A DNA stretch of 38,826 nt. Origin: Bacteroidia bacterium (GTDB lineage Bacteria > Bacteroidota > Bacteroidia > UBA4408). The translations under genes were made by a program, and so were the position numbers. This document shows positions 244 to 38,826 of this stretch, piece after piece (the first letter of the stretch is position 1; each line of letters opens with the position of its first letter). The DNA lies in NCBI GenBank assembly GCA_020845635.1, contig JADLFI010000008.1:1-38826 (forward strand), given 5' to 3'. The notes below the pieces were generated by a model, which searched no databases, was not told the origin of the DNA, and was given only the letters and a program-made list of their open reading frames with translations.

Positions 244-430
244 TATGTACATTATTGTGAAGTTGTTTAAGAGGGGTTACAATATTGTTACAATTATGCT
301 TTGATTTACTTTATAAGTTAGGTTTTGATTGTTGTATGTATAGTCAGTGGGATTCATCTGTATTCAGTAGAACTCATGTTGCTTGCCCTTTCAAAAGCAA
401 GCATTTCATCACTTTTATCCTTGTTTTATT

Positions 431-438
431 TATCTTTG
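431..438 (+). promoter_or_regulatory. -7 promoter element ahead of the enoyl-CoA hydratase remnant
   Basis: TATCTTTG matches TAnnTTTG exactly and lies 24 bases before the ATG at 463. The promoter seems to have survived although the gene behind it is broken. Confidence 0.45.
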
Positions 439-462
439 CAGTCCTATTTGAGAAGCAATAAA

Positions 463-650
463 ATGGAACTTATACAAGTAGAAATGCACATAAGACTAAA
501 TATTTCTCTCATTAGTCTTAATCGCCCGAAAGAATTGAATGCACTCAATTGGCAGTTAATGCATGAAATTAAATATACAGTTGGAATTTGAAGAAGCAAG
601 CAGTAATTATAAAAGAAACGCTATTTCTGCAGCTGTTGGATGGTTATTGA
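463..650 (+). pseudogene. decayed enoyl-CoA hydratase/isomerase fragment
   Basis: From the ATG at 463 the frame encodes about 42 residues that look like the start of a crotonase-family protein: MELIQVEM, then LISLNRPKELNALNWQLM, the hallmark 'xxLNRPxxLNALN' beta-strand and helix. The frame stops at 589-591, whereas complete enzymes are about 260 residues. Just after the stop, two other frames give short pieces (AVIIK at 600-614, NAISAAVG from 617) that could be the next crotonase strand joined by frameshifts, but that part is weak. No CoA-binding or oxyanion-hole region follows. The open frame extends upstream to 325, but that part shows no family likeness, so I start the remnant at 463. The end is approximate. 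From 651 to 765 I see nothing recognisable. Confidence 0.6.
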
Positions 651-765
651 CACTTATAAAAATTTTCAGCATTAGGGTTTAACTGAAAAAAGACTTTTCA
701 AATAGAGTATAAACTGTCACACTTAGCAGCTTAGACGTCATTTTGTCAATCTGTCTGTTGGAGGG

Positions 766-1683
766 TCAGAAATTCTTTATTATTTTTATTGTTTTGGCGT
801 TCAATCCATTATTAATACTTAAAAAATATATTCCTGATTTCAATTCTGTTAAGTCCATAGTTTGATTGTTACCAATCACCTGTGTTCGCATAATCGTTTG
901 CCCTAAACTATTCAATAAAGTTAATTCATACAGCTTTGAGCCAAAGTTATCTAGGTGAATAATGTCCGAAAATGGATTGGGGTAAATTTTGAAGTCAGTG
1001 AGTTTTAAGTAATCAGCACTGAGAACAATGTTTACAAAGCAGCTTGAGTAATTTTGGTGTTGCCAAACTTGCTGATTATTGGAAAACGTACAAGTAACCA
1101 ACATCGAGTCCGGCATTTCTGTGCTGAATTTAATTGGAAAGTTGGTAAACAATGGGCCGTGAATGCTTCCTATTCCTTCAATCCATATTTCGCTCAACAG
1201 GTCAAAAGCGTTAATCGTAGTTGGTTCGGCAAAATGAAACCGTTTGTAATACTGTCCGTTTATTTGAATACTGTCAATACTAACCACAGGGATTTTTTCC
1301 GGATATTGCCCATATAAATTAAACAATACGCTGTCTCCTGCACTAATATTAAAATCATACAAAGTATCGAGCTGGTTTGATGTGTCAAGAAATAACACCC
1401 TATTGTTTTCAGACCGAATTAGTCCTTTAAACATCAAGTTGTTTTGGAATAGAGAGTCACTTGCTGAAAATATTTTAAACCATATATTGCTATTTATAAG
1501 TGTGTCGCCTATAAAGCCGTAAACAGTTGTTGTAGTTGCCACAAAGTTTGGATTTTGTATATTGCCATTAGGATATGTTTTTGCAACATTCCATTTAGTA
1601 TCCATATTTTCAAAATGATTTGTAATTTGCCCAAATATCAATATAGGTATGGTTAAGAATGTAAGTAAAAGACTTATTTTCAT
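766..1683 (-). CDS. secreted protein with T9SS type A sorting domain
   Basis: This is a 305-residue protein of unknown function that is exported through the Sec system and then the type IX secretion system. The N-terminus is a signal peptide (MKISLLLTFLTIPILIFGQ). The middle, about residues 20-215, is not recognised and contains beta-rich, Asn/Ser-rich sequence. The last 80 residues or so form a T9SS type A sorting domain: FKIYPNPFSDIIHL, then ELTLLNSLGQTIM, then LKSGIYFLSI and a terminal KTIKIIKNF. The domain is complete, so the protein is probably cleaved and attached to the surface or released. It stands alone on the minus strand, and the next gene rightward diverges from it. PorT, a component of the same secretion system, is encoded at 26400-27158. 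Confidence 0.88.
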   Translation of the reverse strand: MKISLLLTFLTIPILIFGQITNHFENMDTKWNVAKTYPNGNIQNPNFVATTTTVYGFIGDTLINSNIWFKIFSASDSLFQNNLMFKGLIRSENNRVLFLDTSNQLDTLYDFNISAGDSVLFNLYGQYPEKIPVVSIDSIQINGQYYKRFHFAEPTTINAFDLLSEIWIEGIGSIHGPLFTNFPIKFSTEMPDSMLVTCTFSNNQQVWQHQNYSSCFVNIVLSADYLKLTDFKIYPNPFSDIIHLDNFGSKLYELTLLNSLGQTIMRTQVIGNNQTMDLTELKSGIYFLSINNGLNAKTIKIIKNF

Positions 1684-1741
1684 TGTTTTGCAATTAGGTT
1701 GTTAGAGCATCTGCCTGAAATTATATAACATTAAATTATAT

Positions 1742-1749
1742 CAAATGTA
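1742..1749 (-). promoter_or_regulatory. -7 promoter element for the T9SS cargo gene
   Basis: The minus strand reads TACATTTG, matching TAnnTTTG, 58 bases upstream of the ATG at 1683. That leaves a 5' leader of roughly 50 bases. Confidence 0.4.
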
Positions 1750-1935
1750 AAATAATCAGTTCAAATCCACAATATCATTAGTTATTCATGTATAGGATAT
1801 TAAGGGCTAATACACTTATAAACATAAAATGTGTCCGAATTAATTCGCCAATTTGAATTTTTCTGCATCATCTTTTATGCTTTTCAGTACTTACCATTTT
1901 TGGTTTTTTTCTCTATTTAATTAAAATCAAATGAT

Positions 1936-1943
1936 TAACTTTG
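1936..1943 (+). promoter_or_regulatory. -7 promoter element for the DUF5777 gene
   Basis: TAACTTTG matches TAnnTTTG and is followed by C, as is common in this phylum. It ends 28 bases before the ATG at 1972. A -33 box is not obvious. Confidence 0.5.
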
Positions 1944-1971
1944 CAGTTTATACAAAAATTATGATTGGGTA

Positions 1972-2907
1972 ATGAAAACCTATACTATTCTGAATAAACA
2001 GTTTTTGTTGTTATGGATATGTTTTTTTTTTACTCTCCATTTGCAGGCACAAGATTTAAACAGCTTGATGAATGATGCCGAAAAAAATGAGAGTGAAGAA
2101 AAAGAATTGGTAACAGCAACATTTAAAGGAACCCGTGTAATTAATTTACATACCATTGAAACCCAAGGACCCCGTGTGTTGGAATTTCGTATTTCACACC
2201 GCTTTGGCGATTTGGGTTCCGGAGGCATTAATGCCTTTGGTTTAGATGGGGGAGCCAGTATGCGTTTAGCTTTAGAGTACTGTGTTGATGGGCGATTTAA
2301 TTTTGGATTGGGTCGTTCCAATATTGACAAAACGGTTGATGGATATTTAAAATACCGATTACTTCGCCAAACTACTAAAAACGAAATGCCTTTAAGTTTA
2401 ACCCTTCTGGCGGCTTCTTATCTTAATACATCCAAAGACCCTAATACTGCTGTTACAGGGTATAATAAATTCGTACCGGCCTCTAATCGTTTAAGCTATT
2501 GTTTTCAGGCTATTATGGCACGCAGAATTAACGACTATGTTTCAGTACAAATAGCCCCCACCATGTTGCATTTTAATTTGGTACCACGCAAAGTTGATAA
2601 AAACGATATGTTTGCTTTAGCCTTTTCGGGACGTGTAAAAATTAATAACAGAACAGCTTTTACCTGCGAATATACACATCGTCTTACACTCGATTATGCC
2701 AATCAGAAAGATGCTGCGGGCAATCAACTCTATTACAATCCTTTTGCCTTTGGTGTTGATATTGAAACCGGAGGACACGTGTTTCAGATTCATTTCGCCA
2801 ATTCACAGGGAATTATTGAGAACCAGTTTATACCATTTACTACTACTTCGTTTAAAAATTGGGGTATAAAATTAGGCTTCAATATTTCAAGAGTGTATAG
2901 CTTGTAA
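1972..2907 (+). CDS. DUF5777 family outer-membrane beta-barrel protein
   Basis: This 311-residue protein has a signal peptide (residues 1 to about 26, ending LQAQ) and alternating hydrophobic strands throughout, as expected for an outer-membrane barrel. The start of the mature part (ATFKGTRVINLHTIET, then EFRISHRFGDLGSGG, then GLDGGASMRLALEYCV and the GRFNFGLGRSN turn) matches what I recall of the Bacteroidota DUF5777 family. The family has no established function, though neighbours elsewhere often include cytochromes and redox proteins. The C-terminus ends in a strand (WGIKLGFNISRVYSL), as barrels usually do. The gene has its own promoter, and the U32 family gene follows 44 bases later. Confidence 0.75.
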   Translation: MKTYTILNKQFLLLWICFFFTLHLQAQDLNSLMNDAEKNESEEKELVTATFKGTRVINLHTIETQGPRVLEFRISHRFGDLGSGGINAFGLDGGASMRLALEYCVDGRFNFGLGRSNIDKTVDGYLKYRLLRQTTKNEMPLSLTLLAASYLNTSKDPNTAVTGYNKFVPASNRLSYCFQAIMARRINDYVSVQIAPTMLHFNLVPRKVDKNDMFALAFSGRVKINNRTAFTCEYTHRLTLDYANQKDAAGNQLYYNPFAFGVDIETGGHVFQIHFANSQGIIENQFIPFTTTSFKNWGIKLGFNISRVYSL

Positions 2908-2951
2908 GTTAAAAATTTAATGCAAAACTTTAATAAATAACCCTATTAAAA

Positions 2952-4193
2952 ATGAAAAATAAATTGATGGAACTTATGGCACCTGCCGGCTCATACGAAG
3001 CTATTGCAGCCGCCATTAATGCAGGAGCCGATTCAATATATTTTGGTGTAGAGCAATTAAATATGCGTACCAAATCAACGCATAATTTTACTTTGGATGA
3101 TTTACCTAAGATTTCTGAAATTTGTAAAAGTAATCAGGTAAAAAGCTACCTAACCCTTAATACTATTGTATATGACCACGATATACAATTGCTGAAACGA
3201 ATTATTGACAGCACCAAAGCTGCAGGAATTACGGCCATTATTGCCTCTGACCATGCCGTGATGAACTATTGCCGAAAAGCCGGTGTACCGGTACATATCT
3301 CTACACAGGCCAATATTACTAACATTGATACCGTAGAGTTTTACTCTGTATATGCTGATGTTATGGTTATGGCTCGCGAGTTAAGTTTACAACAAGTGCA
3401 ATCAATACATCGCGAAATTCAAAGACGTGAAATTACAGGACCTTCAGGAGAATTAGTAAAGTTGGAAGTGTTTGGTCATGGCGCCTTGTGTATGGCTGTT
3501 TCGGGAAAGTGTTATTTGAGTTTGCACTCTAATTATTCTTCGGCCAACCGAGGAGCCTGTATTCAAAACTGCCGCAAAAGCTATATTGTTACCGATAAGG
3601 AAGATGGTGTTGAGTTTGAAGTGGATAACGAATACATAATGTCGGCCAAAGATTTGTGTACAATTGATTTCTTAGATAAAATCGTGGGTGCAGGTGTTTC
3701 CGTTCTTAAAGTTGAGGGTCGTGGTCGCAGTGCCGATTATGTTCATGTTACTATTCAATGTTATCGCGAAGCAATTGATGCGCTCGCCAATGGAACCTAC
3801 TCAAAAGAAAAAATAGACCAATGGAAAGAAAGACTGAGTACGGTATTTAATCGCGGTTTCTGGGATGGTTATTATTTGGGTCGCAAAATGGGCGAGTGGA
3901 ATGATGAAGCCGGATCAAAAGCTACCAAGCGTAAGGTATATATTGGTAAAGGTTTAAAATATTACGATCAGGCCGGAGTTGCCGAGTTCTTAATTGAAGC
4001 TCAAGGTTGTAAAGTGGGCGATGAGTTGCTTATTATTGGCCCTACTACGGGTGTTGTTGAAGCATCACTTCATGAAATGCGATGCGATGACCAAAGCGTA
4101 GATATTGTTAAACGCGGAAAAACCATTACTTTCCCTGTATCTACTAAAATCAGACCCAGTGATAAACTATATAAACTAGTTCCCGCAACATGA
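2952..4193 (+). CDS. U32 family peptidase-like protein (TrhP/YegQ-like)
   Basis: This 413-residue cytoplasmic protein belongs to family U32. The opening MELMAPAGSYEAIAAAINAG and the signature EVFGHGALCMAVSGKCYLS are diagnostic. U32 members were named as peptidases, but the better-studied ones act in tRNA or rRNA hydroxylation (TrhP, RlhA) and in ubiquinone synthesis (UbiU/UbiV). Four cysteines, C180, C187, C203 and C207, sit where UbiU/UbiV carry Fe-S ligands, so a cluster is likely. That is inference. Length and layout best fit the TrhP type, which makes the 5-hydroxyuridine at tRNA position 34. The stop overlaps the start of the ferredoxin gene by four bases, which suggests the two products work together. 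Confidence 0.88.
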   Translation: MKNKLMELMAPAGSYEAIAAAINAGADSIYFGVEQLNMRTKSTHNFTLDDLPKISEICKSNQVKSYLTLNTIVYDHDIQLLKRIIDSTKAAGITAIIASDHAVMNYCRKAGVPVHISTQANITNIDTVEFYSVYADVMVMARELSLQQVQSIHREIQRREITGPSGELVKLEVFGHGALCMAVSGKCYLSLHSNYSSANRGACIQNCRKSYIVTDKEDGVEFEVDNEYIMSAKDLCTIDFLDKIVGAGVSVLKVEGRGRSADYVHVTIQCYREAIDALANGTYSKEKIDQWKERLSTVFNRGFWDGYYLGRKMGEWNDEAGSKATKRKVYIGKGLKYYDQAGVAEFLIEAQGCKVGDELLIIGPTTGVVEASLHEMRCDDQSVDIVKRGKTITFPVSTKIRPSDKLYKLVPAT

Positions 4194-4417
4194 TAAAAGT
4201 ATTGCAACACCGGCATAAATGCATAGGGTGTAATGCTTGTGTAGAAGCCGATAAGTATCGTTGGAGAATTTCAAAAAAAGACGGTAAAAGCACCCTGATT
4301 GGGGCTACTGAAAAAAAAGGCTGGTATTCGGTAGTAGTTGAAGATGATGAAGCAGAAAAATTAGAAGCCGCCCGCGTACATTGCCCCGTAAACATTATTC
4401 GTTGGGAAAAAATATAA
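4190..4417 (+). CDS. small single-cluster ferredoxin
   Basis: This 75-residue protein has the cysteine pattern of one [4Fe-4S] or [3Fe-4S] cluster: C11, C14 and C17 (HKCIGCNACVEA) plus a remote C65-P66 (HCPVNIIRW). The 47 residues between are longer than in minimal bacterial ferredoxins and contain a Trp/Tyr-rich segment. There is no signal peptide. The ATG lies inside the last codons of the U32 gene (ATGA overlap), so translation is coupled. It probably carries electrons, possibly to the U32 enzyme, but the partner is inferred from gene order only. Confidence 0.82.
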   Translation: MIKVLQHRHKCIGCNACVEADKYRWRISKKDGKSTLIGATEKKGWYSVVVEDDEAEKLEAARVHCPVNIIRWEKI

Positions 4418-4441
4418 CCCTGTTTTTAATTTTTAAGTCGT

Positions 4442-4474
4442 TTTGTCATACTTGTTTATTTGGCAATAAATTTG
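4442..4474 (+). promoter_or_regulatory. promoter (-33 TTTG, -7 TAAATTTG) for the zinc peptidase gene
   Basis: TTTG at 4442-4445 and TAAATTTG at 4467-4474 are separated by 21 bases, which fits the Bacteroidota primary sigma factor pattern. The ATG is at 4500. This is the most complete promoter seen in the window. Confidence 0.6.
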
Positions 4475-4499
4475 TATTTCTTATGGTAAAAAACAAACT

Positions 4500-5189
4500 A
4501 TGATAGGAATTTATTTGATATTCGGATTTTTTGCCATAATCAGTTGGGTAATCAGCAATCGCCTTAAAAGTAAATTTGAAGCATACAGCCAAATACCATT
4601 AAGCAGCAATATGAGTGGGAGTGAGGTTGCAAAGAAAATGCTGAACGATGCCGGAATTTATGATGTAAAAATAATTTCAGTTGAGGGGCAACTGAGCGAT
4701 CATTACAATCCCACCAATAAGACAGTAAATTTAAGCCATGATGTATTTTATGGACGTAGCATTGCTTCGGCTGCTGTAGCAGCACACGAGTGTGGGCATG
4801 CCGTTCAGCATGCGCGAGCTTATACTTGGCTCAACCTGCGAAGCCAGTTGGTTCCGGTACTTTCGGTAACTTCTAAATATATGCAGTGGATATTGTTGGC
4901 CGGTATTTTATTAATTAATCTCAGTCCAATACCGCTGGGGGTTGGAATAGTTTTGTTTTCACTTACAACTTTGTTCTCATTTATTACCTTGCCGGTTGAG
5001 TTTGATGCTTCAAACCGTGCTTTAAAATGGTTGCAAAGTTCAGGAGTGTCTAATAGTTCTAATCACGCTTACGCGCAAGATGCCCTAAAGTGGGCAGCCA
5101 TGACTTATGTAGTTGCAGCATTAAGTTCCTTAGCCACCTTAATATATTATATCTTAATTTTTTTAGGAAATCAAAGGAGAAACAACTAA
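4500..5189 (+). CDS. membrane zinc metallopeptidase, YugP-like
   Basis: The 229-residue protein has an N-terminal membrane segment (IYLIFGFFAIISWVI). A soluble stretch with the zinc motif AHECGHAVQH follows (H96, E97, H100, the HExxH pattern), and then three more hydrophobic segments at about 125-140, 145-165 and 205-222. The sequence NLSHDVFYGRSIASAAVAAH ahead of the motif and LPVEFDASNRAL after it are typical of the zinc peptidase family PF04298. FDAS probably supplies further ligands. The substrate is unknown, and the family is usually annotated as a zinc metallopeptidase of the cytoplasmic membrane. The gene is a single unit with its own promoter. Confidence 0.9.
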   Translation: MIGIYLIFGFFAIISWVISNRLKSKFEAYSQIPLSSNMSGSEVAKKMLNDAGIYDVKIISVEGQLSDHYNPTNKTVNLSHDVFYGRSIASAAVAAHECGHAVQHARAYTWLNLRSQLVPVLSVTSKYMQWILLAGILLINLSPIPLGVGIVLFSLTTLFSFITLPVEFDASNRALKWLQSSGVSNSSNHAYAQDALKWAAMTYVVAALSSLATLIYYILIFLGNQRRNN

Positions 5190-5307
5190 CCCATTTACAC
5201 TCAATTTAATACTTTGTAATTGCGGTTATTAATTTCAAATAAACTAACTGTTTGCAAAAAATATTTATTTATAAGCTAATTATTCTTTTTTAATAGAATT
5301 GATTAGT

Positions 5308-5315
5308 TATTTTTG
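5308..5315 (+). promoter_or_regulatory. -7 promoter element for pyrG
   Basis: TATTTTTG matches TAnnTTTG and is followed by C. It ends 25 bases before the ATG at 5341, so the in-frame ATG at 5299 lies upstream of the promoter box and cannot be the start used by this transcript. Confidence 0.5.
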
Positions 5316-5340
5316 CAGTCGTTATTTTAATATCTGCTCT

Positions 5341-6954
5341 ATGCCAAATGCTAAATATATTTTTGTAACCGGAGGGGTTACATCTTCACTCGGAAAAGGT
5401 ATTATTTCAGCATCGCTGGCTACATTACTGCAATCGCGTGGGTTTAAAGTAACTATCCAAAAGTTTGACCCTTATATTAATATTGATCCGGGAACATTAA
5501 ACCCCTATGAGCATGGCGAGTGTTATGTTACTGATGATGGGGCCGAAACCGATTTAGATTTAGGACATTACGAACGTTTTTTAAATGTTCCTACCTCGCG
5601 TGCCAACAGTATTACTACAGGCCGCATATATAAGTCGGTAATTGATAAAGAACGACAAGGAGCATATTTAGGAAAAACCGTTCAGGTTATTCCGCATATT
5701 ACCGATGAAATTAAAAACAGTATCAAGCTTCTAGCCAAAAACAAGGCTTTTGATTTCGTGATTACCGAAATTGGCGGTACTGTGGGCGATATTGAGTCCT
5801 TACCTTATATTGAAGCCGTTAGGCAAATGAAATGGGAGTTAGGGAAAAATTGTTTGGTAGTGCATCTTACCCTTATACCATATTTGGCTGCTGCCGGGGA
5901 GCTAAAAACCAAACCCACGCAACACTCGGTAAAAGCTTTACTTGAATACGGAATACAACCCGATATTTTGGTTTGTCGCACGGAGCATACCTTAAATAAA
6001 GAGTTGAAAAAGAAAATAGCTTTATTCTGTAATGTTGAAATTAGTGCGGTGGTTGAAAGTATTGATGCTTCAACCATTTATGAAGTTCCTTTCTTGATGA
6101 AAGAAGAAAAACTAGATGAGGTGGTTTTACGCAAATTAAGCATTGATACCGACCAAAAACATGATTTAACGGCTTGGAGCAAATTTCTGAGAAAATTTAA
6201 AAACCCCACCAAAGAAGTAAATATTGCATTGGTTGGAAAATATACGGAATTAAAAGATGCTTATCTTTCCATTGCTGAGGCATTTAAACATGCCGGAGTA
6301 GCTAACGATACACGGGTAAATCTTAACTGGATACATTCAGAAGGAATTAATGATGATAATGTTGCAGAGAAAGTTCAAGACATGAGTGCGGTACTTGTGG
6401 CTCCAGGCTTTGGAGAGCGCGGAGTAGAAGGAAAAATTGCTACTATTAAGTATGTACGCGAAAATAATATTCCGTTTTTTGGTATTTGTTTGGGAATGCA
6501 ATGTGCAGTTATTGAGTTTTCACGAAATGTATTAAAATTAAAAAATGCCAATAGCACCGAAATAAATGTTGATACACCTCACCCCGTGATTGATATTATG
6601 GACGAGCAAAAAAAGGTAACTATGAAAGGCGGAACTATGCGCTTAGGGGCATATTCATGCCAATTAAGCAAAGATTCCTTAGCGTATAAAATTTACCAGT
6701 CAGATACAATTCAAGAACGTCACCGTCATCGTTTTGAGTTTAATAATAAATACTTGGATAAATTTGTAAATGCCGGAATGATTAACACCGGAATGAATCA
6801 GAAAACTAATCTGGTTGAGATTATTGAAATACCTAGTCATCCATTTTTTATAGGCGTTCAGTTTCACCCTGAATACAAAAGTACTGTGGCACAGCCGCAT
6901 CCCTTATTTGTCAGTTTTGTGGCTGCAGCTCTTAAACATCAGAAATCTAAATAG
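5341..6954 (+). CDS. pyrG: CTP synthase
   Basis: This 537-residue cytoplasmic enzyme makes CTP from UTP, ATP and glutamine. The N-terminal amidoligase domain begins [20 protein letters not shown] with the P-loop-like GxxSSLGKG, followed by [20 protein letters not shown] and the [10 protein letters not shown] region. The C-terminal class I glutamine amidotransferase domain has the nucleophile C383 in GICLGMQ, and the His and Glu of the triad in VQFHPEY. The length is standard (about 535-545). I chose the start at 5341, not the in-frame ATG at 5299, because the protein family begins at MPNAKY and a promoter -7 box lies at 5308-5315. The gene stands alone. Confidence 0.97.
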
Positions 6955-7006
6955 TTAAAGTATTATAAGCCCCTCTGTGTCTTTATTTTTTATTAAAGAT
7001 ATAACT

Positions 7007-7014
7007 TATATTTG
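7007..7014 (+). promoter_or_regulatory. -7 promoter element almost touching the ruvX start
   Basis: TATATTTG matches TAnnTTTG and ends five bases before the ATG at 7020. In Bacteroidota, transcription usually starts about five to seven bases after this box, so the ruvX message would be leaderless or nearly so. Confidence 0.5.
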
Positions 7015-7019
7015 TACTT

Positions 7020-7433
7020 ATGTCCCGTATAATGTGTTTTGATTATGGAACCAAAAGGGTTGGAATAGCCGTATCAGACCCCATGCAAATGATTGCCGGG
7101 GCTTTGTGTACTTTGCATCCTGATAAAGTTTTAGATTTTATAATTGATTACAAACGTTCTGAAACCATTTCGTGCTTTGTGGTTGGATTGCCCAAAAACC
7201 TTGATAATTCTATTAATGAAGTAGAAAGATATATAAAAGGTTTTATCAAGAAACTAAATCAAAACTTTCCTAACATACCTGTTGAACGCATAGATGAACG
7301 GTTTACATCGGTAATGGCTCAAAAAAGTATGGTTATGGGGGGAATAAAAAAAAGCCAAAGACAAGAAAAAGGAAATACCGATCAGATTAGTGCAACCATT
7401 CTATTACAAGATTATTTAAGAAAGAAAATATAA
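7020..7433 (+). CDS. ruvX: Holliday junction resolvase-like YqgF/RuvX
   Basis: The 137-residue protein has the RNase H-like YqgF fold. The first strand carries the acidic residue in CFDYGTKRVGIAVSD, and the second block is VVGLPKNLDNS. Then comes DERFTSVMAQ with the Glu, and the last acidic residue is in DQISATILLQDYL. The family is assigned to Holliday junction resolution and to pre-16S rRNA end processing. The gene heads a compact same-strand cluster with def (5-base gap), a lipoprotein, rlmD and a methyltransferase. The promoter sits so close to the ATG that the message may lack a leader. Confidence 0.94.
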   Translation: MSRIMCFDYGTKRVGIAVSDPMQMIAGALCTLHPDKVLDFIIDYKRSETISCFVVGLPKNLDNSINEVERYIKGFIKKLNQNFPNIPVERIDERFTSVMAQKSMVMGGIKKSQRQEKGNTDQISATILLQDYLRKKI

Positions 7434-7438
7434 AAATT

Positions 7439-7996
7439 ATGATATTACCAATTGTCGCTTACGGAGACCCTGTTTTACGAAAAAAAGGAGTTGATATTGA
7501 CCAAGATTATAAAGATTTAAAGCAGTTGATTGACAATATGTTTGAAACCATGTATCATGCCAATGGTGTGGGATTGGCCGCACCTCAAATTGGCAAATCA
7601 ATACGTTTGTTTATTGTTGATGCTGCCCCTTTTGAAGATAAAGAACCTGAACTTAAAGATTTTGTTCAGGTATTTATAAATCCTGAAATTGTTGAACAAA
7701 GCGGAGAAGAATGGGCTTTCAACGAAGGCTGCCTGAGTATTCCCGGCATTCGCGAAGATGTTATGCGTAAGCCTACCATTTTGGTTAGATATTATGACGA
7801 AAATTTTGAATATTATGAAGAAGAATTTTCAGGATTGGCAGCACGTGTAATTCAACATGAGTATGATCATATAGAAGGAATATTGTTTACCGACCGTATT
7901 AACGCTTTAAAACGAACCTTACTGAAAGGAAAGCTAAACGATATAAGCAAAGGAAAAGTTGATGTAGATTATAAAATGAAATTTCCAAAGAAGTAA
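7439..7996 (+). CDS. def: peptide deformylase
   Basis: The 185-residue enzyme removes the N-formyl group from new proteins. All three motifs are present: GVGLAAPQIG, EGCLSIPG with the metal ligand C98, and QHEYDHIEG with H140, E141 and H144. The length is normal and the start is the first ATG, five bases after ruvX. The order ruvX-def is common in Bacteroidota. It acts in the cytoplasm on ribosome-bound nascent chains. Confidence 0.97.
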   Translation: MILPIVAYGDPVLRKKGVDIDQDYKDLKQLIDNMFETMYHANGVGLAAPQIGKSIRLFIVDAAPFEDKEPELKDFVQVFINPEIVEQSGEEWAFNEGCLSIPGIREDVMRKPTILVRYYDENFEYYEEEFSGLAARVIQHEYDHIEGILFTDRINALKRTLLKGKLNDISKGKVDVDYKMKFPKK

Positions 7997-8004
7997 ATTA
8001 ATTA

Positions 8005-8556
8005 ATGAAACGAATAATAATTATTTCAATTATAGCATGTGCTGTGGCTCTTCTTATGAGTTCGTGTGGTAATTCTAAGAAAAGTGAGGTAGGAGGAAAA
8101 GAGTTTTATCAGAAACAAATAGATTCGGTTGAAACTCAGTTGTATGGCAATAAAAAATTTGCTATTGATCATGCCACAGCTATGTTTGCCATTAAGTGTT
8201 ATGAAGAGTTTGCCTCATACTTTCCTGACGATGCAAAATCGGCCGATTATTTATTGAAAGCGGCTGACATTTCGCAAGGGTTAGGCTCGTATGATGCTGC
8301 ACTGAATTACCTAAATAAGTTAACAACCAAGTACCCCAATTATAAAAACAAAGCCTGGGCAATACTTATGAAAGCCATTATTTATGGAGACGTAAAAGGA
8401 GATACTGCACAAGCGCGTATTTATTATAATGAAGTAATAACCCAATACCCCGAAAGTGAGCTAGCTAAGGATGCTGAAGCCAGTATAAAAAATTTGGGAA
8501 AAAGTCCCGAAGAGCTTATCAGAAGTTTTGAAGAAAATCAGTCAAAAGCTAATTAA
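8005..8556 (+). CDS. TPR-containing lipoprotein
   Basis: The 183-residue protein has a lipoprotein signal ending in the lipobox LMSSC (C21). Two or three tetratricopeptide-like helical repeats follow, for example AMFAIKCYEEFASYFPDDAK, LGSYDAALNYLNKLTTKYP and TAQARIYYNEVITQYPES. It should be a lipid-anchored scaffold in the periplasm or inner leaflet of the outer membrane. The repeat spacing resembles BamD/YbgF-type TPRs, but the protein is too short for BamD and I do not claim that role. It sits 8 bases after def and 17 bases before rlmD, so all are likely on one message. Confidence 0.85.
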   Translation: MKRIIIISIIACAVALLMSSCGNSKKSEVGGKEFYQKQIDSVETQLYGNKKFAIDHATAMFAIKCYEEFASYFPDDAKSADYLLKAADISQGLGSYDAALNYLNKLTTKYPNYKNKAWAILMKAIIYGDVKGDTAQARIYYNEVITQYPESELAKDAEASIKNLGKSPEELIRSFEENQSKAN

Positions 8557-8573
8557 ACCGGTGTTTGCATAAC

Positions 8574-10016
8574 ATGAAAGTAAAAAAAAAACTACCTTTA
8601 ATAGAAGCTATTGAAATTGTAGATATTGGTTCTGAGGGGCAAGCTGTTGCCAAGTATAACGATTGGGTTATATTTGTAAAAGGCGGTGTGCCCGGAGACG
8701 TATGCGATATACAAATAACACGAAGAAAAAATAAATATGCTGAAGGCTTTATTACGCGTCTTGTCAAACAATCTGACAAAAGAACACAACCCTTTTGCTC
8801 ACATTTTGGTACTTGTGGAGGGTGTAAATGGCAGCATTTAGATTATCGCTGGCAGTTGTTCTACAAGCAAAAACAAGTGGAAGATGCTTTAAAACGAATT
8901 GCCAAAATTCCGTACCCCGAGTTGTTGCCTATTATTTCATCTGAGCATACAACTTTTTATCGTAACAAACTGGAATATACCTTTAGCAATAAAAAATGGC
9001 TTAATAAAGATGATTTTATTAAAGCAGTTGAAAATAATGAAAACAAAACCCAAGCTTTTACCGATAGCAAAGGTGTTTCAAATGCCTTAGGATTTCATAT
9101 TCCGGGAATGTTTGATAAGGTACTTGATATTGATAAATGTTGGTTGCAGCATAACATTAGCAATGAAATAAGAAATTCAGTTAAAGATTTTTGCAATAAA
9201 CAGCATTATCCTTTTTTTGATATTAAACAGCAAAATGGGTTTATGCGCAATTTAATTGTTCGTAACAGCAGCATAGGGGAGTTAATGGTTATTGTAGTGT
9301 TTCATAAAAATGATGAAACAAAAATCAATAAACTGATGGGCTTTTTAGCCGAACAATTTCCTCAAATAAACTCATTGAACTATGTTGTTAACCCTAAACG
9401 TAATGATACCATAAACGATTTAGAGGTAATTACCTACAAAGGAAGCAGTTATATTGTAGAAGAAATGGATGGTTTGAAGTTTATGGTAAGTCCTAAATCG
9501 TTTTATCAAACCAACCCAAAACAGGCTATGGTCTTGTATAAGGTGGCCAAAGATTTTGCCAATATTAAAAGAAACCAAACCGTGTATGATTTATATACAG
9601 GAACCGGCACTATAGCCAACTATGTGGCACTACACGCCAACAAAGTAATAGGTATTGAGTATATTGAAGAAGCCATTCATGATGCACAAAGAAACTCAAG
9701 CCTTAATCATATATCAAATACTGCTTTTTTTGCAGGCGATATGAAAGAGGTGCTGACACCCGAATTTATAGCACAACATGGCAAAGCCGATGTAATTATA
9801 ACCGACCCGCCACGTGCCGGAATGCATATTGATGTGGTGCAAAGAATTATGGAAATGAAACCGAAAACGGTGGTATATGTAAGTTGCAATCCGGCAACAC
9901 AAGCACGCGATATTGCCTTCATGGCATCTCTCTATAAAGTTACTGCAGTGCAGCCTGTTGATATGTTTCCACACACTCATCATGTAGAATGTGTAATAAA
10001 GTTAGAATTAATGTAA
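8574..10016 (+). CDS. rlmD: 23S rRNA (uracil-5-)-methyltransferase RlmD
   Basis: The 480-residue RumA/TrmA-family enzyme makes 5-methyluridine in RNA. It starts with a TRAM-like RNA-binding domain (about 5-60, including the glycine-rich VKGGVPGDVCDIQITRRK). The Fe-S site is FCSHFGTCGGCKWQH plus a later Cys in DKCWLQ. The SAM domain has YDLYTGTGTIANYVAL, and the catalytic parts are DPPRAGMH and YVSCNPATQARD with the nucleophilic Cys. I use the ATG at 8574. A TTG three codons upstream is possible but adds nothing conserved. RlmD versus RlmCD or TrmA cannot be separated with certainty by eye. Confidence 0.93.
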   Translation: MKVKKKLPLIEAIEIVDIGSEGQAVAKYNDWVIFVKGGVPGDVCDIQITRRKNKYAEGFITRLVKQSDKRTQPFCSHFGTCGGCKWQHLDYRWQLFYKQKQVEDALKRIAKIPYPELLPIISSEHTTFYRNKLEYTFSNKKWLNKDDFIKAVENNENKTQAFTDSKGVSNALGFHIPGMFDKVLDIDKCWLQHNISNEIRNSVKDFCNKQHYPFFDIKQQNGFMRNLIVRNSSIGELMVIVVFHKNDETKINKLMGFLAEQFPQINSLNYVVNPKRNDTINDLEVITYKGSSYIVEEMDGLKFMVSPKSFYQTNPKQAMVLYKVAKDFANIKRNQTVYDLYTGTGTIANYVALHANKVIGIEYIEEAIHDAQRNSSLNHISNTAFFAGDMKEVLTPEFIAQHGKADVIITDPPRAGMHIDVVQRIMEMKPKTVVYVSCNPATQARDIAFMASLYKVTAVQPVDMFPHTHHVECVIKLELM

Positions 10017-10030
10017 TACCGTGTAAAGTC

Positions 10031-10618
10031 ATGATAAAAACCGATAAAAAATTTTGGGAATCTCGTTGGGAAAATAAACAAACGGGATGGGATGCCGGGC
10101 AAATTACCACACCACTCAAAGAATACTTTGACCAATTAAAAGACAAAAGTATAAAAATACTAATTCCGGGTTGTGGTAATGCCTACGAGGCCGAGTACTT
10201 ATATAAATTAGGGTTTAATAATGTATATATTATTGATATTGCTCAGCAGGCCTTAGATAATTTTAAACTGCGTGTCTCCGATTTTCCTGAGGAGCATTTA
10301 ATATGTGACGATTTTTTTAATCATGAAGCACAGTATGATTTAATTGTAGAGCAAACTTTCTTTTGTGCTTTAAATCCGTCCTTGCGTGGCCAATATGCCC
10401 AAAAAGTACATAGCTTATTAAAGCCTCAAGGAAAGCTCATGGGTTTACTTTTTAATATTCCGTTAAACAGCACCGAGCCTCCATTCGGTGGCCATAAAGA
10501 TGAATATATTAAATACTTTGAGCCTTATTTTAATTTTAAATACTTTGAAATATGCTATAATTCCATAAAGCCAAGAGCCAATAACGAACTATTTATCTTA
10601 TTCACAAAGAAAGCATAA
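10031..10618 (+). CDS. SAM-dependent methyltransferase, TPMT-like
   Basis: The 195-residue enzyme belongs to the thiopurine S-methyltransferase-like group. It opens with FWESRWENKQTGWDAGQITT, the family's usual WxxRWxxxxxGW motif. The SAM-binding loop is ILIPGCGNAYEAEYL with a following acidic strand VYIIDIA, and the later PPFGGHKDEY segment is also typical. Substrates in bacteria are small thiols, halides, selenium or tellurium compounds, or simply unknown. I chose ATG 10031 because the earlier in-frame start at 9989 lies inside rlmD and its extra 14 residues are not family-like. It is the last gene of the ruvX-def-rlmD cluster. Confidence 0.88.
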   Translation: MIKTDKKFWESRWENKQTGWDAGQITTPLKEYFDQLKDKSIKILIPGCGNAYEAEYLYKLGFNNVYIIDIAQQALDNFKLRVSDFPEEHLICDDFFNHEAQYDLIVEQTFFCALNPSLRGQYAQKVHSLLKPQGKLMGLLFNIPLNSTEPPFGGHKDEYIKYFEPYFNFKYFEICYNSIKPRANNELFILFTKKA

Positions 10619-10632
10619 TGATTATTTTTCTA

Positions 10633-10640
10633 TACCTTTG
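10633..10640 (+). promoter_or_regulatory. -7 promoter element for the LUD-domain gene
   Basis: TACCTTTG matches TAnnTTTG and ends 15 bases before the ATG at 10656. The leader would be about ten bases or less. Confidence 0.5.
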
Positions 10641-10655
10641 TACCAATATTGAGTT

Positions 10656-11282
10656 ATGGAACAAAGTACCTCTCGCGAAAAAATATTAAAGAAAGTACGC
10701 AATGCCTTGATGAATAAGTCGCCCAAAGACACTGTGGCTAATATTGACTTTGAATCTGAAGTTTTTGCCAAGGCCGTAGATGATCTTGAACTGGTATTTG
10801 CTCAAAATTTTACCGAAGCAGGTGGGCGTTTTATTTTTTGCGAAAATAATGTAGTTCTGATTGAAACAATTGAAGAATTTGCTAATAACATTGACTTGCC
10901 TGGCAATATTGTTTGTCAGGAACCAATTATTCAAGAATTATTACAAGTTGCTGAAACTAAGTTTCAAACGGAGTTTACCGATAGTACACCCATTGTAATA
11001 AGTAGTTGTGAGCAGTTAGTTGCGCGTACCGGAAGTGTAATGGTTTCGTCAAAACAAGGAACCGAAAAAAGGGCTTTATTAAATGCTCCTTTTTTAATTG
11101 TAATAGCTTCAACTAATCAGTTGGTGGGAGACACCAAACAAGCATTAATTGAAGTACGTAAAAGATATAATGGTACTTTCCCCAATATGTTATCTATTAT
11201 CACTAATCCTATTGACACCGAGAATAAGCTGAATAATAATAAACAAAATATTTTGGTATTGCTAATAGATGCACAAGATTAA
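10656..11282 (+). CDS. LUD domain protein (LutC/YkgG-like)
   Basis: The 208-residue protein has an N-terminal helix (SREKILKKVRNALMNK). The LUD core follows, with the typical GGRFIFCEN strand and the signature LVARTGSVMVSS, and later APFLIVIASTNQLVGDTKQAL. LutC is part of the LutABC lactate-oxidation complex, but no lutA or lutB is nearby. Stand-alone LUD proteins next to cdsA are a regular Bacteroidota arrangement whose function is unknown, so I would not infer lactate use. DUF2007 and cdsA follow on the same strand, 28 bases later. Confidence 0.88.
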   Translation: MEQSTSREKILKKVRNALMNKSPKDTVANIDFESEVFAKAVDDLELVFAQNFTEAGGRFIFCENNVVLIETIEEFANNIDLPGNIVCQEPIIQELLQVAETKFQTEFTDSTPIVISSCEQLVARTGSVMVSSKQGTEKRALLNAPFLIVIASTNQLVGDTKQALIEVRKRYNGTFPNMLSIITNPIDTENKLNNNKQNILVLLIDAQD

Positions 11283-11310
11283 TTAACCCCTTTACTAATA
11301 CTTATGAGCT

Positions 11311-11520
11311 ATGGAAAATTGGACTAAGGTATATGAAACTGATGATTTGCAGAATGCAGAATTGCTTAAGTCTGTACTGTTAAATGAGGGTATAGAAGCT
11401 GTTACACTAAATCAAAAGGACAGTAGTTATGTGGTTTATGGAACTATCTCTATATATGTTCCTAATGAAATGGCAGAACAAGCCAATAATATTATTAAAT
11501 CACAATTAAGCAGTGAGTAA
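11311..11520 (+). CDS. DUF2007 small protein
   Basis: The 69-residue cytoplasmic protein matches the DUF2007 (putative signal transducing protein) pattern. It opens with WTKVYETDDLQNAELLKSVL, then the strand IEAVTLNQKDSSY, and ends with IYVPNEMAEQANNIIK. The fold is a ferredoxin-like beta-alpha-beta unit, and the role is unknown. Its stop codon lies eight bases inside cdsA, so the two are translationally coupled. Confidence 0.85.
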   Translation: MENWTKVYETDDLQNAELLKSVLLNEGIEAVTLNQKDSSYVVYGTISIYVPNEMAEQANNIIKSQLSSE

Positions 11521-12322
11521 TTTTTGGCAAAGAGCCGTTACCGGCACTGTCTATGTTGCTGTGCTTGTTGGGATGACCTATTTTCATCCCTTGTCTTTGG
11601 GTATTCTCTTCCTTGTTGTAACTATTTTAGGGTGCAATGAGTTTTTTAATATAGCTATAAAAGGGAATAACACGCCCCAAAAAATAATGGGCACTTTATT
11701 GGCATCATGGTCATTTGTTTTGAGCTTTATGTATGTGTTTTATGAACTCCCCCCCAAGTTCATGATGCTTATTATTGTAATGATATGCCTTGTATTTATT
11801 GGAGAATTATATCGTAAAAAAAACAATCCTTTCAGGCAAATAGCCTTTACCTTAACCGGGGCTATATGGGTGGGTTTACCCATGAGCCTGATTCCGTTTT
11901 TGGTAAATTATCAAAATCAGTTTCATCCCGAGATTTTGTTGGGGTGCTTTTATTTAGTATGGGCTAATGATACAGGAGCTTATTTACTGGGAAGCAAAAT
12001 AGGAAAACGTAAATTATTTGAACGTATTTCGCCTAAAAAAACATGGGAAGGTGCATTGGGAGGCGCTCTTCTGGCAATGGCTATAAGCTATCCCATAGCT
12101 CATTTTTATACCGTGTTTTCATTTACCCACTGGTGTATAATAGGATTAATTGTGGCGGTTATTGGCAATTATGGAGACTTAATTGAGTCACTTTATAAAA
12201 GAAGTAAAAATATTAAAGACTCCGGAACTCTATTGCCCGGTCATGGAGGAATCTTAGACCGTATTGATAGCTTACTGATGGTTATTCCGTTTGTTACTGT
12301 TTATGTTTATTTATTCATTTAG
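11513..12322 (+). CDS. cdsA: phosphatidate cytidylyltransferase
   Basis: The 269-residue integral membrane enzyme makes CDP-diacylglycerol from phosphatidate and CTP, the branch point of phospholipid synthesis. There are about seven to eight hydrophobic segments. The C-terminal signature SLYKRSKNIKDSG, then LLPGHGGILDRID, is complete. The start is a GTG at 11513 (MSNFWQRAVTG) that overlaps the DUF2007 stop by eight bases. The usual Bacteroidota neighbour psd is not next to it here. Confidence 0.95.
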   Translation: MSNFWQRAVTGTVYVAVLVGMTYFHPLSLGILFLVVTILGCNEFFNIAIKGNNTPQKIMGTLLASWSFVLSFMYVFYELPPKFMMLIIVMICLVFIGELYRKKNNPFRQIAFTLTGAIWVGLPMSLIPFLVNYQNQFHPEILLGCFYLVWANDTGAYLLGSKIGKRKLFERISPKKTWEGALGGALLAMAISYPIAHFYTVFSFTHWCIIGLIVAVIGNYGDLIESLYKRSKNIKDSGTLLPGHGGILDRIDSLLMVIPFVTVYVYLFI

Positions 12323-12393
12323 TTTAACTGTTAAATTCTTAATTATTACATCAATATTTAAGAGATATAACATTATTAAGCCCTTAAATTTAT

Positions 12394-12401
12394 TATCTTT
12401 G
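12394..12401 (+). promoter_or_regulatory. -7 promoter element for the 12422 gene
   Basis: TATCTTTG matches TAnnTTTG and ends 20 bases before the ATG at 12422. Confidence 0.5.
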
Positions 12402-12421
12402 ATAAAAGTAAAAAAATAACT

Positions 12422-13684
12422 ATGTTCAAACGGTTGATATTAATATTTACATTGGTATTTTTCATGGCAATTCCATCGTTTGCGTCTTTTTTATTGATAC
12501 CCATGGATAATACCCAGAAGAATCATTTAAAAGCTTATGGTATTGCATACTGGGTATTAAAAAATGATGCAGAGTTAAGCTGGCTACTTAATTATCGTGG
12601 TGGTAGCTTTATGATGAAAAATATGAAATCTGTTGAAAACGAATGTTTAATCAGAGGTGTTTCATATGAAATTATTGCCGATTCAAAAGCCACTGCAATT
12701 CTACAGGAAATATCCAATCCTGAGGTGAATATGGACGAAATAAAACTTGAAAAAGCACCACGTGTGGCGGTATATTCACCTAAAAATAAATTGCCTTGGG
12801 ATGATGCAGTTACAATGGCATTGACCTATGCCGAAATTCCATACGATGTAGTTTATGATGAAGAGGTGATTATAGGTAAATTGCCTATGTATGATTGGCT
12901 GCACCTGCATCATGAAGATTTTACTGGACAGTATGGTAGATTTTACGCTATGTATCGCAATGCAGCATGGTATCAAGAAGAGCAAAGAACAAGTGAAGCC
13001 AGAGCTCAAAAATTAGGATTTAAAAAAGTATCACAGTTGAAATTGGCTGTAGCTCAAAAAATTCGTGATTTTACTGCGGGTGGAGGTTTTTTATTTGCAA
13101 TGTGCTCAGCTACCGACTCGTATGATATTGCTTTAGCTTGCGAAGGTTTAGACATATGTGAAAGCATGTTTGACGGAGATGGTACTACCCCTAATTACAA
13201 TAGTAAAATTGATTATTCAAAAGGTTTTGCATTTACTAATTATACATTAAAGACAAATCCTATGGAATACGAGTTTAGTAATATTGATATTAAAGTGCCG
13301 CGTGCAATACCGCAAAAAAACGACTTATTTGTACTTTTTGACTTTAGTGCCAAATGGGATCCTGTGCCGAGCATGCTGTGTCAAAATCACGAAAATATTA
13401 TTAAAGGTTTTATGGGGCAAACAACAGCCTTTAATAAAAACTATATTAAACCGGGAGTGTTAATTATGGGCGACAATAAGTCGATGAATGAGGCACGCTA
13501 CATACATGGCGAGTACGGTAAAGGTACTTGGACTTTTTATGGCGGTCACGACCCCGAAGATTATCAACACTTTGTGGGCGACCCGCAAACTGATTTAAGT
13601 TTACATCCTAACTCTCCGGGGTATCGTTTAATCTTGAATAATATTCTTTTTCCAGCGGCTAAAAAGAAAAAACAAAAAACATAA
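12422..13684 (+). CDS. secreted Bacteroidota protein often labelled 'asparagine synthetase B'
   Basis: The 420-residue protein has a signal peptide (MFKRLILIFTLVFFMAIPSFA) and then FLLIPMDNTQKNHLKAYGIA and WLLNYRGGSFMM. I recall these as the start of a conserved Bacteroidota family carried in databases as 'asparagine synthetase B'. The sequence does not support that name: there is no N-terminal Cys nucleophile, no ATP-pyrophosphatase SGGxDS loop, and the protein is exported. About residues 135-260 could be a class I amidotransferase-like (ThuA/PfpI-like) fold, with GGGFLFAMCSATDS placing C228 at a nucleophile-elbow position and later GGHDPEDYQH. That is inference. The C-terminus is lysine-rich (AAKKKKQKT). 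The function is unknown. Confidence 0.75.
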   Translation: MFKRLILIFTLVFFMAIPSFASFLLIPMDNTQKNHLKAYGIAYWVLKNDAELSWLLNYRGGSFMMKNMKSVENECLIRGVSYEIIADSKATAILQEISNPEVNMDEIKLEKAPRVAVYSPKNKLPWDDAVTMALTYAEIPYDVVYDEEVIIGKLPMYDWLHLHHEDFTGQYGRFYAMYRNAAWYQEEQRTSEARAQKLGFKKVSQLKLAVAQKIRDFTAGGGFLFAMCSATDSYDIALACEGLDICESMFDGDGTTPNYNSKIDYSKGFAFTNYTLKTNPMEYEFSNIDIKVPRAIPQKNDLFVLFDFSAKWDPVPSMLCQNHENIIKGFMGQTTAFNKNYIKPGVLIMGDNKSMNEARYIHGEYGKGTWTFYGGHDPEDYQHFVGDPQTDLSLHPNSPGYRLILNNILFPAAKKKKQKT

Positions 13685-36171: not shown

Positions 36172-36467
36172 TAGTACTACTTTAGTTGCATTTAAAATAT
36201 TTATTCTTTTACTTCTTTAGCAATAAATAAAAATTTAATCCCAATAGCTTTATTATTGCGCTTCGCCAGTTTGAAACAGAAAATGTTAAGTTGGGTCTTA
36301 TATCCTGGTTAAATATTTCTATAGCTTTTGTCTTATTATGTTTGGCCCAATTTCGGGGAAGCTTACAGAACGGTACCGCTCTACTTCTGCCAATAAAAAC
36401 TTAAACCACAACTCCGCTATGATGCGTTTAAGTCTTACTTGTTATAAGATGTGTTTCTTTCTTGTCG
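36172..36467. other. intergenic gap with a possible decayed minus-strand frame
   Basis: No intact gene is visible. On the minus strand, 36212-36400 is open for 63 codons without an ATG, ending at a TAA at 36209, and contains KAIEIFNQDIRPNLTFSVSN and AIIKLLGLNFYLLLKK. A second frame further upstream (about 36330-36445) reads RIIAELWFKFLLAEVERYRS. One of these may be a gene remnant joined by frameshifts, but I recognise no family. The local GC content is a little higher around 36340-36420. Confidence 0.35.
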
Positions 36468-38060
36468 TCATAGTTCATTAATGTTTTTTACTAGCGTCAA
36501 TACGCTGTTTGGATTATTTAGTTCGTAAAACCAATTATTGTCAAAGTCCTTAATTGTCGCAGGATTCTGACTATTACCAACTACCAAACTATGAAATTTA
36601 GTTTTGTTGTCTTTGGCTGATTTAATTTGGTCTTGTGTTGTTTTATCAAATGCTGACATTACAAAGTCCGAAATCATTATCACATCGGCCTTTTTATAAT
36701 CTTCTGTTGTTAACATTCTAAGAGCTTCTCTCATTGCGGGAGTTGCATCTGTGCCACCTTGAAAACTCATTGAAAGAAAGGATATAATTTTATCAATTGA
36801 GTTCTTTAAATCTGTTAGGTTAAGAGTTGCAATTCCTGTCGAAAATGAAATTAGATAACATTTTCGATTATCACGAATTGCGATTTTTAGAATAGCAAAG
36901 CAAAGAGTTTTGGCAACTATTTCAGGAGTTCCGTGCATTGAGCCACTTGTGTCAACACAAATGATAAAAGGTCCTTTTGCTTCTTCTTTTTCCTTTTGTC
37001 GCTTATCTTGATATTCCTCTTCTCGGTAAGAAAGCATTTTTGCTTGATACTCGAATGTTTGTAATTTCTTTTCAGCATACTTTTTATAGAATACAAATTG
37101 CATTGATTCATTGGCAAGTAAAGCAGTTTCCGAAGGAAGTAAACTACTCAAATCATCGCTTTCGTGTATTCCGATTAAGTCGGCTTTACTTGCGTGTTCC
37201 ACCTTCCATTCGGGTTTGAGTTGAATGTTTGCAAACATTTCTTCTTCAAATTCTTTTTCGGCTTGCTGCATTTTACCAAGCATTTCGGCAAGTTCTTTCA
37301 GCGACTTATCTCGTTGCAAAAGTTCAGCGTATTTTTTCAGAATATCAAAATTTACACTTTGCCAATTACCTTTGCTCATTTCCCAAATCCGTCCTAATAC
37401 TATTGTGAATGGCTCAAGTACTTCTTGTAGTTTTTTTAGTTCTTCAATACGCTTGTATAGTTCTTCACAAAATTTTTTTCTCTCGGTTTCTATTTGTTCA
37501 AGCTCCCATTTTATCTGCTTCTTAATAAGCAATTCGTCCCACTCTTCAATGAAATGTTCTTTTACACTTTCAAAACTTGGCTTGTCTTTATCGATATTGA
37601 TTTTTTTGTCCAAACTTCTTTTAAACTCATTTTCGTAGAAAGTGGTATCAAAATCTTTCTTGTCGTATATATCTTTAATGATTGGGTTTACTTTATCCCA
37701 TTTACTTTTAAATTCCGATTTCTCGCTTTGCTCAAATTCGTTTTTTAGTTCTATTTCCTCTTCAAATGGATTTGAAGTCTTGCTTAGTTGCTTTTTGGTC
37801 TTGTTAACAAAATCAAGAATTTCTTGAGTTATCTTTTCTGCAAGTTCAGGGTCTTCAGAGCATAATTCTTTCATTGTAGGATAGGAAAGAATCTCGTCAA
37901 TAGCAGTTCCAAAATTATCAGAATCAGCATTGGCAAAGTCAATGCCTTTTTCGGATTCCTTTAGCAACTGGGAAAAAATTGCGTTAGCAATTTTCTCCCT
38001 TGAATCTTTATTGCCAATGAAACCGAAGTTAATAAATCTATCAAAAGTATCTCGTCTCAT
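36468..38060 (-). CDS. viaA: ViaA-like VWA domain protein
   Basis: The 530-residue protein has a long helical N-terminal part (about 1-360, with coiled-coil-rich LYKRIEELKKLQEV and MLGKMQQAEKEFEEEMFA). A C-terminal von Willebrand A domain follows: GPFIICVDTSGSMHG with the MIDAS D370, S372 and S374; GGTDAT with T437; MISDFVM with D465. GPFIxCVDTSGSM with SFxGGTD and VIMISDF is the ViaA pattern, and E. coli ViaA is 483 residues. ViaA works with the RavA ATPase, which fits the fragment directly upstream. The start overlaps the stop of that fragment by one base (TAATG). It may now lack a working partner. Confidence 0.82.
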   Translation of the reverse strand: MRRDTFDRFINFGFIGNKDSREKIANAIFSQLLKESEKGIDFANADSDNFGTAIDEILSYPTMKELCSEDPELAEKITQEILDFVNKTKKQLSKTSNPFEEEIELKNEFEQSEKSEFKSKWDKVNPIIKDIYDKKDFDTTFYENEFKRSLDKKINIDKDKPSFESVKEHFIEEWDELLIKKQIKWELEQIETERKKFCEELYKRIEELKKLQEVLEPFTIVLGRIWEMSKGNWQSVNFDILKKYAELLQRDKSLKELAEMLGKMQQAEKEFEEEMFANIQLKPEWKVEHASKADLIGIHESDDLSSLLPSETALLANESMQFVFYKKYAEKKLQTFEYQAKMLSYREEEYQDKRQKEKEEAKGPFIICVDTSGSMHGTPEIVAKTLCFAILKIAIRDNRKCYLISFSTGIATLNLTDLKNSIDKIISFLSMSFQGGTDATPAMREALRMLTTEDYKKADVIMISDFVMSAFDKTTQDQIKSAKDNKTKFHSLVVGNSQNPATIKDFDNNWFYELNNPNSVLTLVKNINEL

Positions 38061-38737
38061 TATGAAATAATTATTTCTTCGTTCTTCAATATTTTATAGT
38101 CGTTTTGAATTTTGCGGATTTCAACTTCAAATTTTTCAATTTCTTTTTTTGTCGAAGTCAAGTGACTTTCTACAATGTTGGCTAATTCAGTATTGACAAA
38201 TAGATTAGTTCTCAATTGCTGTAAGTCCTTGGTTCTATAAGTTTCAAGTTCTTCTTTTTGATTATTTGTTACTTCAAGATAGTTTGCAATTCTATTGTCC
38301 CAATCTTCTTCAACCTTTTTGTGTGGTTTTTTAGTTATCTGACGTTTTTCCCCTTCGATAGTTGTTTTTAGTTTGTACTCTTGGTCATTTATGAAGATGA
38401 TAAATTTTGAATTTCCCTTTCTTATATTGAAAGCATTGTGTCGATTAGCTTGTCGGCCATAAACATTTTGATTAATAAGATAAACTAATTTATTGTTATT
38501 TGTTAAACTATTGAAATCAATCTGACTTATAAGGTTGTTTTCATTGTTGAAACCAACTATTTCAAAGTAATCGTTTCTTGCATTTACAAGTGTTTCAACT
38601 CTTGTGTCTTTTACGAAATTCGTTTCTTCCTCTATTTCTGCTTTAAATTCATCTAACTCATCTTTTAGTCCTTTGAAATTGAACTTTAAAGAATAACCGT
38701 GCTTTTGAATTGCATCACTAACGTAACCCTCCCATAA
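38060..38737 (-). pseudogene. C-terminal part of a RavA/MoxR-type ATPase, 5' end lost
   Basis: This minus-strand frame of about 225 codons runs into viaA with a 1-base overlap (TAATG). It has no start codon at its upstream end: a TAA lies at 38738-38740 and no ATG follows in frame. The part seen is charged and helical (for example KLVYLINQNVYGRQANRHNA and KKEIEKFEVEIRKIQND), as expected for the C-terminal half of RavA. The AAA motor (Walker A/B) should be upstream and is missing. Family assignment rests on position next to the ViaA-like gene and general character, not on a hallmark motif. True homology may begin near 38722. Confidence 0.6.
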
Positions 38738-38826
38738 TTAGGACAGGTTGTAAATATACAAAATTAAATTTATTTTCGTTGTGCTTATCAAGAAACAGAA
38801 AAGAGCTCTGCTGGAGAGCAACTCTC
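38723..38826. mobile_element. possible end of an IS3-family insertion sequence
   Basis: The ATPase frame breaks here. The plus strand at 38723-38747 reads GTAACCCTCCC, then ATAATTAGGACAGG. This resembles IS3-family terminal repeats, which often carry a CCCA...GGACA pattern. An A/T-rich stretch and then a GC-richer end (38803-38826, with a GCTCT/AGAGC hairpin) follow and leave the window. No transposase frame can be recognised in the 80 bases seen. The resemblance is judged by eye, so this is a lead only. Confidence 0.3.

Follow-up and report, generated by a model that had tools for sequence, protein, structure and literature searches.

A viaA homologue and the 3' part of its ravA partner beside an IS3-family insertion sequence end in a Bacteroidia genome

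The gene pair at the contig end

The window, by which we mean the whole stretch of 38,826 nucleotides analyzed (contig C8), ends in a minus-strand gene pair that borders a mobile element. Its last part holds the following features.

36468 to 38060, minus strand: intact viaA homologue, 530 aa (open reading frame list, NCBIfam NF008230, and Pfam)
38060 to 38722, minus strand: 3' part of a ravA-type MoxR ATPase gene, 220 codons with no internal stop (comparison with the RavA of L010, an intact relative)
38723 to 38826, minus strand: right end of an IS3-family insertion sequence (IS), with terminal inverted repeat GTAACCCTCCC..., running off the contig (repeat shared with contig C59, likeness to an IS of the congener G001)
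36455 to 38722, minus strand: DNA collinear with the intact ravA-viaA operon of L010, 87.5% identical over 2270 bp (DNA comparison)

The viaA product consists of a helical N-terminal part and a C-terminal VWA domain. The preliminary description had called it ViaA-like with an intact MIDAS and had proposed a profile search, which bore this out: the protein matched the NCBIfam ViaA model (NF008230) with an E value of 7.7e-100, residues 51 to 513 aligning with profile positions 20 to 474. The score of 335 bits is below the curated cut-off of 500 bits, which only E. coli-like members reach; none of the 395 genomes of the class reached it, and among the control genomes only one did. Pfam VWA_2 and VWA_CoxE both scored above their cut-offs, and the MIDAS elements (DTSGS, the T of GGTDA, and ISD) were found by eye. 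PADLOC gave no model match for either protein of 36468 to 38826.

At 530 aa, the protein is indeed about 47 residues longer than its E. coli counterpart, in which the VWA domain spans residues 320 to 483 (PMC9489729). However, most full-length ViaA loci of Bacteroidia encode proteins of 527 to 573 aa (down to 492 aa in L089). Therefore, the extra length is a general Bacteroidia trait and not specific to this locus. The idea that the longer N-terminal helical half has a partner of its own found no support, because homologues of equal length sit directly behind an intact RavA. In E. coli ViaA, it is the N-terminal half that binds RavA (PMC9489729).

The gene upstream of viaA overlaps it by 1 base (TAATG), the last base of its TAA stop, at 38060, being the A of the viaA ATG. 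Read back from viaA, this frame stays open until a TAG at 38738 to 38740, and it has no Walker motif and no start codon at the proper end, all of which agrees with the first reading of the sequence. That reading had also taken the frame for the C-terminal half of a RavA-type ATPase, and comparison with L010 RavA confirmed it. The remnant corresponds to L010 RavA from V301 on (residues 301 to 520) and shares 81% amino acid identity with residues 299 to 519. Only these C-terminal 220 codons are present at 38060 to 38722, and the AAA+ module is absent there. Native ravA can be followed up to the GTT codon at 38722 to 38720. To call the ATPase cut off at its 5' end was right as a description.

We also examined the fold of the remnant with respect to the LARA and triple-helical domains that characterize the C-terminal part of RavA. 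Its model (pLDDT 67) comprises a helix, a beta-rich part, and two long helices. Residues 11 to 207 of the model aligned in register with residues 301 to 497 of a 3nbx chain (Z 7.5, rmsd 2.7, 84 residues), a result tied with unrelated helical bundles. A Foldseek search with the remnant fold returned no match at E<=0.001. AlphaFold prediction of the full L010 ATPase from four sequences was poor (pLDDT 48).

The insertion sequence end

Contig C8 ends at 38826, 104 bp inside the IS. Positions 38722 to 38826 are 100% identical to C59:23-127 of the same genome, where the copy lies at the contig start, and the motif GTAACCCTCCCATAATTAGGACAGGTTG occurs at only two places in the genome, the end of C8 and C59. 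The 127-bp end of C59 matched the congener G001 twice at 82% identity and G034 eight times at 79%, mostly at contig edges. On G001:C60, the same end closes a 1354-bp element (L034:2936-4289) bounded by GTAACCCTCCC repeats. This element encodes OrfA (HTH_Tnp_1) and OrfB (rve), which matched the NCBIfam IS3 family transposase model NF033516 with 179 bits (cut-off, 160 bits). The G001 IS is complete, with a two-frame transposase, a DDE rve core, and matching repeats, whereas C8 holds the last 104 bp only; the two right ends are 82% identical and share the same terminal repeat. These comparisons identify 38723 to 38826 as the right end of an IS of the IS3 family; it was in this repeat that the contig broke.

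The junction is exact. DNA identity with the intact L010 operon reaches 38722, the base that adjoins the terminal repeat of the IS, and goes no further. The TAG at 38738 to 38740 and the first 30 or so residues of the frame as read earlier are IS sequence; therefore, the in-frame stop lies in foreign DNA. Because the DNA from 38723 on is IS and not ravA, the missing front of the ATPase and the in-frame stop have one cause.

The IS body and left ends were not found in the 60-contig assembly, so that both right ends are without a partner. An IS search of the assembly returned nothing but a distant IS-like gene on C51 and, within C30 and C4, short ends that have decayed. We looked for a terminator-like hairpin in the IS end as well; its folding was no better than that of shuffled sequences (z 0.21), and we make no claim of polarity.

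Intact relatives, distribution, and origin

Related genomes had been named as the place to look for an uninterrupted pair. A scan of the contig collection found three close ViaA relatives (L010, L011, and L012; 87, 76, and 68% identity), and in each case an ATPase gene stands immediately before viaA. In L010, the Flavobacteriia MAG WB4_2_1285 (RFQZ01000011.1), ravA lies at 4439 to 6001 (520 aa, Walker A GAPGVAKS) and viaA at 6001 to 7593, with the same 1-base overlap as at the C8 locus. However, ravA is intact in L010, and its flanking genes are unlike those of C8. The L011 ATPase, as listed, begins at a TTG just ahead of the Walker A motif.

L010 RavA matched NCBIfam RavA (NF010054) over residues 5 to 321 with an E value of 1.8e-113 and 380 bits, which is below the curated cut-off of 681 bits, and matched E. 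coli RavA structures over residues 6 to 309 (2.4e-92). Thus, a MoxR AAA+ ATPase of the RavA subfamily stands directly upstream of viaA in the intact relatives, but not at the C8 locus. The proposed RavA-ViaA pairing holds as far as the identity of ViaA and the RavA match of its nearest intact partner are concerned; the AAA+ module itself is missing here.

In all three of these relatives, the pair has mobile or defense-type genes next to it: Wadjet JetA, JetB, and JetC in L011 (region 1953 to 10896); a type IIG restriction-modification gene and an integrase of phage type in L012 (region 2776 to 12441); and a Gp49-like/HTH pair in L010 (7825 to 8464). By eye, such neighbors are not seen in more distant relatives. 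A general defense-island context was unsupported, since most other Bacteroidia loci have housekeeping neighbors (by eye).

A ViaA homologue was found in 15 of the 395 genomes of the class, the source genome included, and in none of seven family relatives (three congeners and four other members). Besides the three close relatives, RavA is directly upstream of ViaA at 14 of 17 further Bacteroidia loci. Two of the remaining three are at contig edges, and the third, in G363 (C1:165947-167305; L071, L081), is a full-length intact ViaA with a gene for a cell-wall-hydrolase-like protein upstream and no RavA-like gene in roughly 7.5 kb of upstream and 6 kb of downstream sequence. This G363 ViaA may be a real orphan. 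The ravA-viaA pair is accessory in the class. Between L010 and the source genome, ViaA is 87% identical but PyrG only 67%, the PyrG value being the same for all three close relatives. This difference to the same genome, together with the absence of ViaA from the seven family relatives, argues that the pair was probably gained by horizontal transfer.

Probable interruption of ravA and its alternatives

The sequence comparisons show the IS end and its exact junction with ravA, that viaA is intact, and that the remnant belongs to ravA. We consider it very probable that a horizontally acquired ravA-viaA pair was hit by an IS3-family element, which landed in ravA at about codon 300, and that the contig stops inside this element. 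The insertion point would lie past the AAA lid and ahead of the C-terminal part of RavA. In the case of a simple insertion, a contig with the 5' half of ravA (residues 1 to 298, about 900 bp) would end in GTAACCCTCC. With only one junction at C8, a target-site duplication is not readable. Because the other end of the IS and the 5' half of ravA are absent from the assembly, the data stop short of demonstrating a simple insertion, in which the two halves would flank the IS, and an IS-linked deletion or a missing contig fits equally well.

We searched for the missing half with the L010 ATPase and found RavA residues 1 to 298 nowhere in the 60 contigs. Apart from the remnant itself, the search matched only two ordinary MoxR ATPases, on C50 (followed by a DUF58-like gene) and C37; they were rejected as partners, since their identity to RavA is only 25 to 28%. 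The preliminary description had proposed extending the assembly past 38826; the contig itself ends there, and C59 shares the repeat of 38722 to 38826. Its suggestion that ViaA is orphaned, or that the ATPase N terminus lies elsewhere after a rearrangement, is not demonstrated: residues 1 to 298 are absent from the assembly, and ViaA looks orphaned only for the reason that C8 runs out within the IS. The SUI1-like gene is followed in three congeners by an AcpH-like gene. The source genome has its AcpH-like gene at C42:32370-32930, inside C42 and not beside the SUI1-like gene of C8 (C8 36171), and therefore its gene order has changed. With the expected neighbor located inside C42, congener synteny failed to identify the contig that follows C8.

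The main alternative is that an IS-linked rearrangement removed the 5' half of ravA, so that ViaA is now a true orphan next to a dead ravA tail. We regard this as possible, though doubtful. Residues 1 to 298 are missing from an assembly that is 99.99% complete, and the region has been rearranged, as the displaced AcpH-like gene indicates. However, both of the expected IS left ends are missing too, which points to contigs lost at repeats, and neither the ravA tail nor viaA has decayed beyond usual rates: relative to L010, dN/dS is 0.28 for the remnant and 0.12 for viaA. The C-terminal half of RavA is the faster-evolving half between intact operons as well. Therefore, neither gene shows signs of long decay, and the IS may have entered ravA recently. 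A break at a contig end inside a repeat is also a common place for assembler errors, so the junction could in principle be a chimeric contig end, or an assembly or binning artifact of a genome with an intact ravA. We think this highly unlikely, because the junction falls exactly at the terminal inverted repeat of a known IS type, which a random misjoin would miss, and no contig in the assembly carries the rest of ravA.

We give almost no credence to the idea that the C-terminal piece of RavA and ViaA form a deliberate, working module without an ATPase. Both frames are free of internal stops, and G363 has an intact ViaA with no RavA in its surroundings, which would suit such a module; yet the remnant lacks a start codon where one should be, a stop within the IS closes its frame, and the full ATPase is kept in close relatives. 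A long shot of a broader kind is that Bacteroidia ViaA persists after RavA loss, as in this strain and G363, with a role of its own or another MoxR partner, and that the pair, whose neighbors in the nearest relatives include Wadjet, restriction-modification, integrase, and toxin-antitoxin type genes, is a mobile stress or defense cassette and not a respiratory chaperone.

If the IS landed in ravA as we propose, the living cell would no longer make the full ATPase from this gene. That would leave ViaA without an ATPase to stimulate and make the pair inactive in this strain. Since the IS separates the AAA+ module from the rest of RavA, loss of function is the likely state in the source strain. 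Function could be regained if loss of the IS rejoined the missing half with the remnant. Nothing here amounts to a new kind of system: the gene pair is known, and so is the type of mobile element that broke it at the end of the contig. An IS interruption is the better reading of what seemed an orphaned gene there.

Relation to known RavA-ViaA systems

In E. coli, ViaA binds RavA via its N-terminal half and stimulates the RavA ATPase, and the pair acts at the inner membrane with respiratory complexes, namely on Nuo and Frd (PMC3893208, PMC9489729). By homology, an intact Bacteroidia pair would consist of a MoxR AAA+ ATPase hexamer and a VWA partner whose helical half binds and stimulates it, and may work as a chaperone-like module on membrane respiratory complexes. 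The order of ATPase and then VWA gene in one operon is the same as in E. coli; ViaA matches its profile over nearly the whole length, and the intact relatives match RavA across the AAA+ module and lid. However, L010 RavA has no sequence match to E. coli RavA past residue 320 or so, and its C-terminal 200 or so residues gave none when searched alone. The interrupted ATPase gene at the C8 locus is a further difference. If this reading is correct, Bacteroidia have a horizontally mobile, accessory subgroup of RavA-ViaA in which the C terminus of the ATPase is very different.

The intact ATPase of the relatives also matches the bpMoxR Pfam model (PF20030) of the MoxR-vWA-beta-propeller ternary systems, but none of the loci read has a beta-propeller or other effector gene next to the pair. 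In the paper on those systems, RavA-ViaA is given as a MoxR-VWA system apart from them (PMC7159879).

In one genome, G294, the region 9480 to 16323 of L084 (G294:C1:3376000-3395999) holds an intact ravA-viaA pair and, directly adjoining it upstream on the same strand, the succinate dehydrogenase/fumarate reductase (sdh/frd) genes for the iron-sulfur protein, flavoprotein, and cytochrome b. This gene context fits the role of the E. coli pair with respiratory complexes, including its fumarate reductase link, and suggests that a tie to respiration may exist in Bacteroidia as well.

Two other ViaA neighborhoods were recorded. The locus of L086 (G093:C32), at 1451 to 10622, is near NuoK, NuoL, and a further Nuo-like gene, and that of L097 (G327:C315), at 352 to 5429, is near cytochrome c oxidase subunits I and III.
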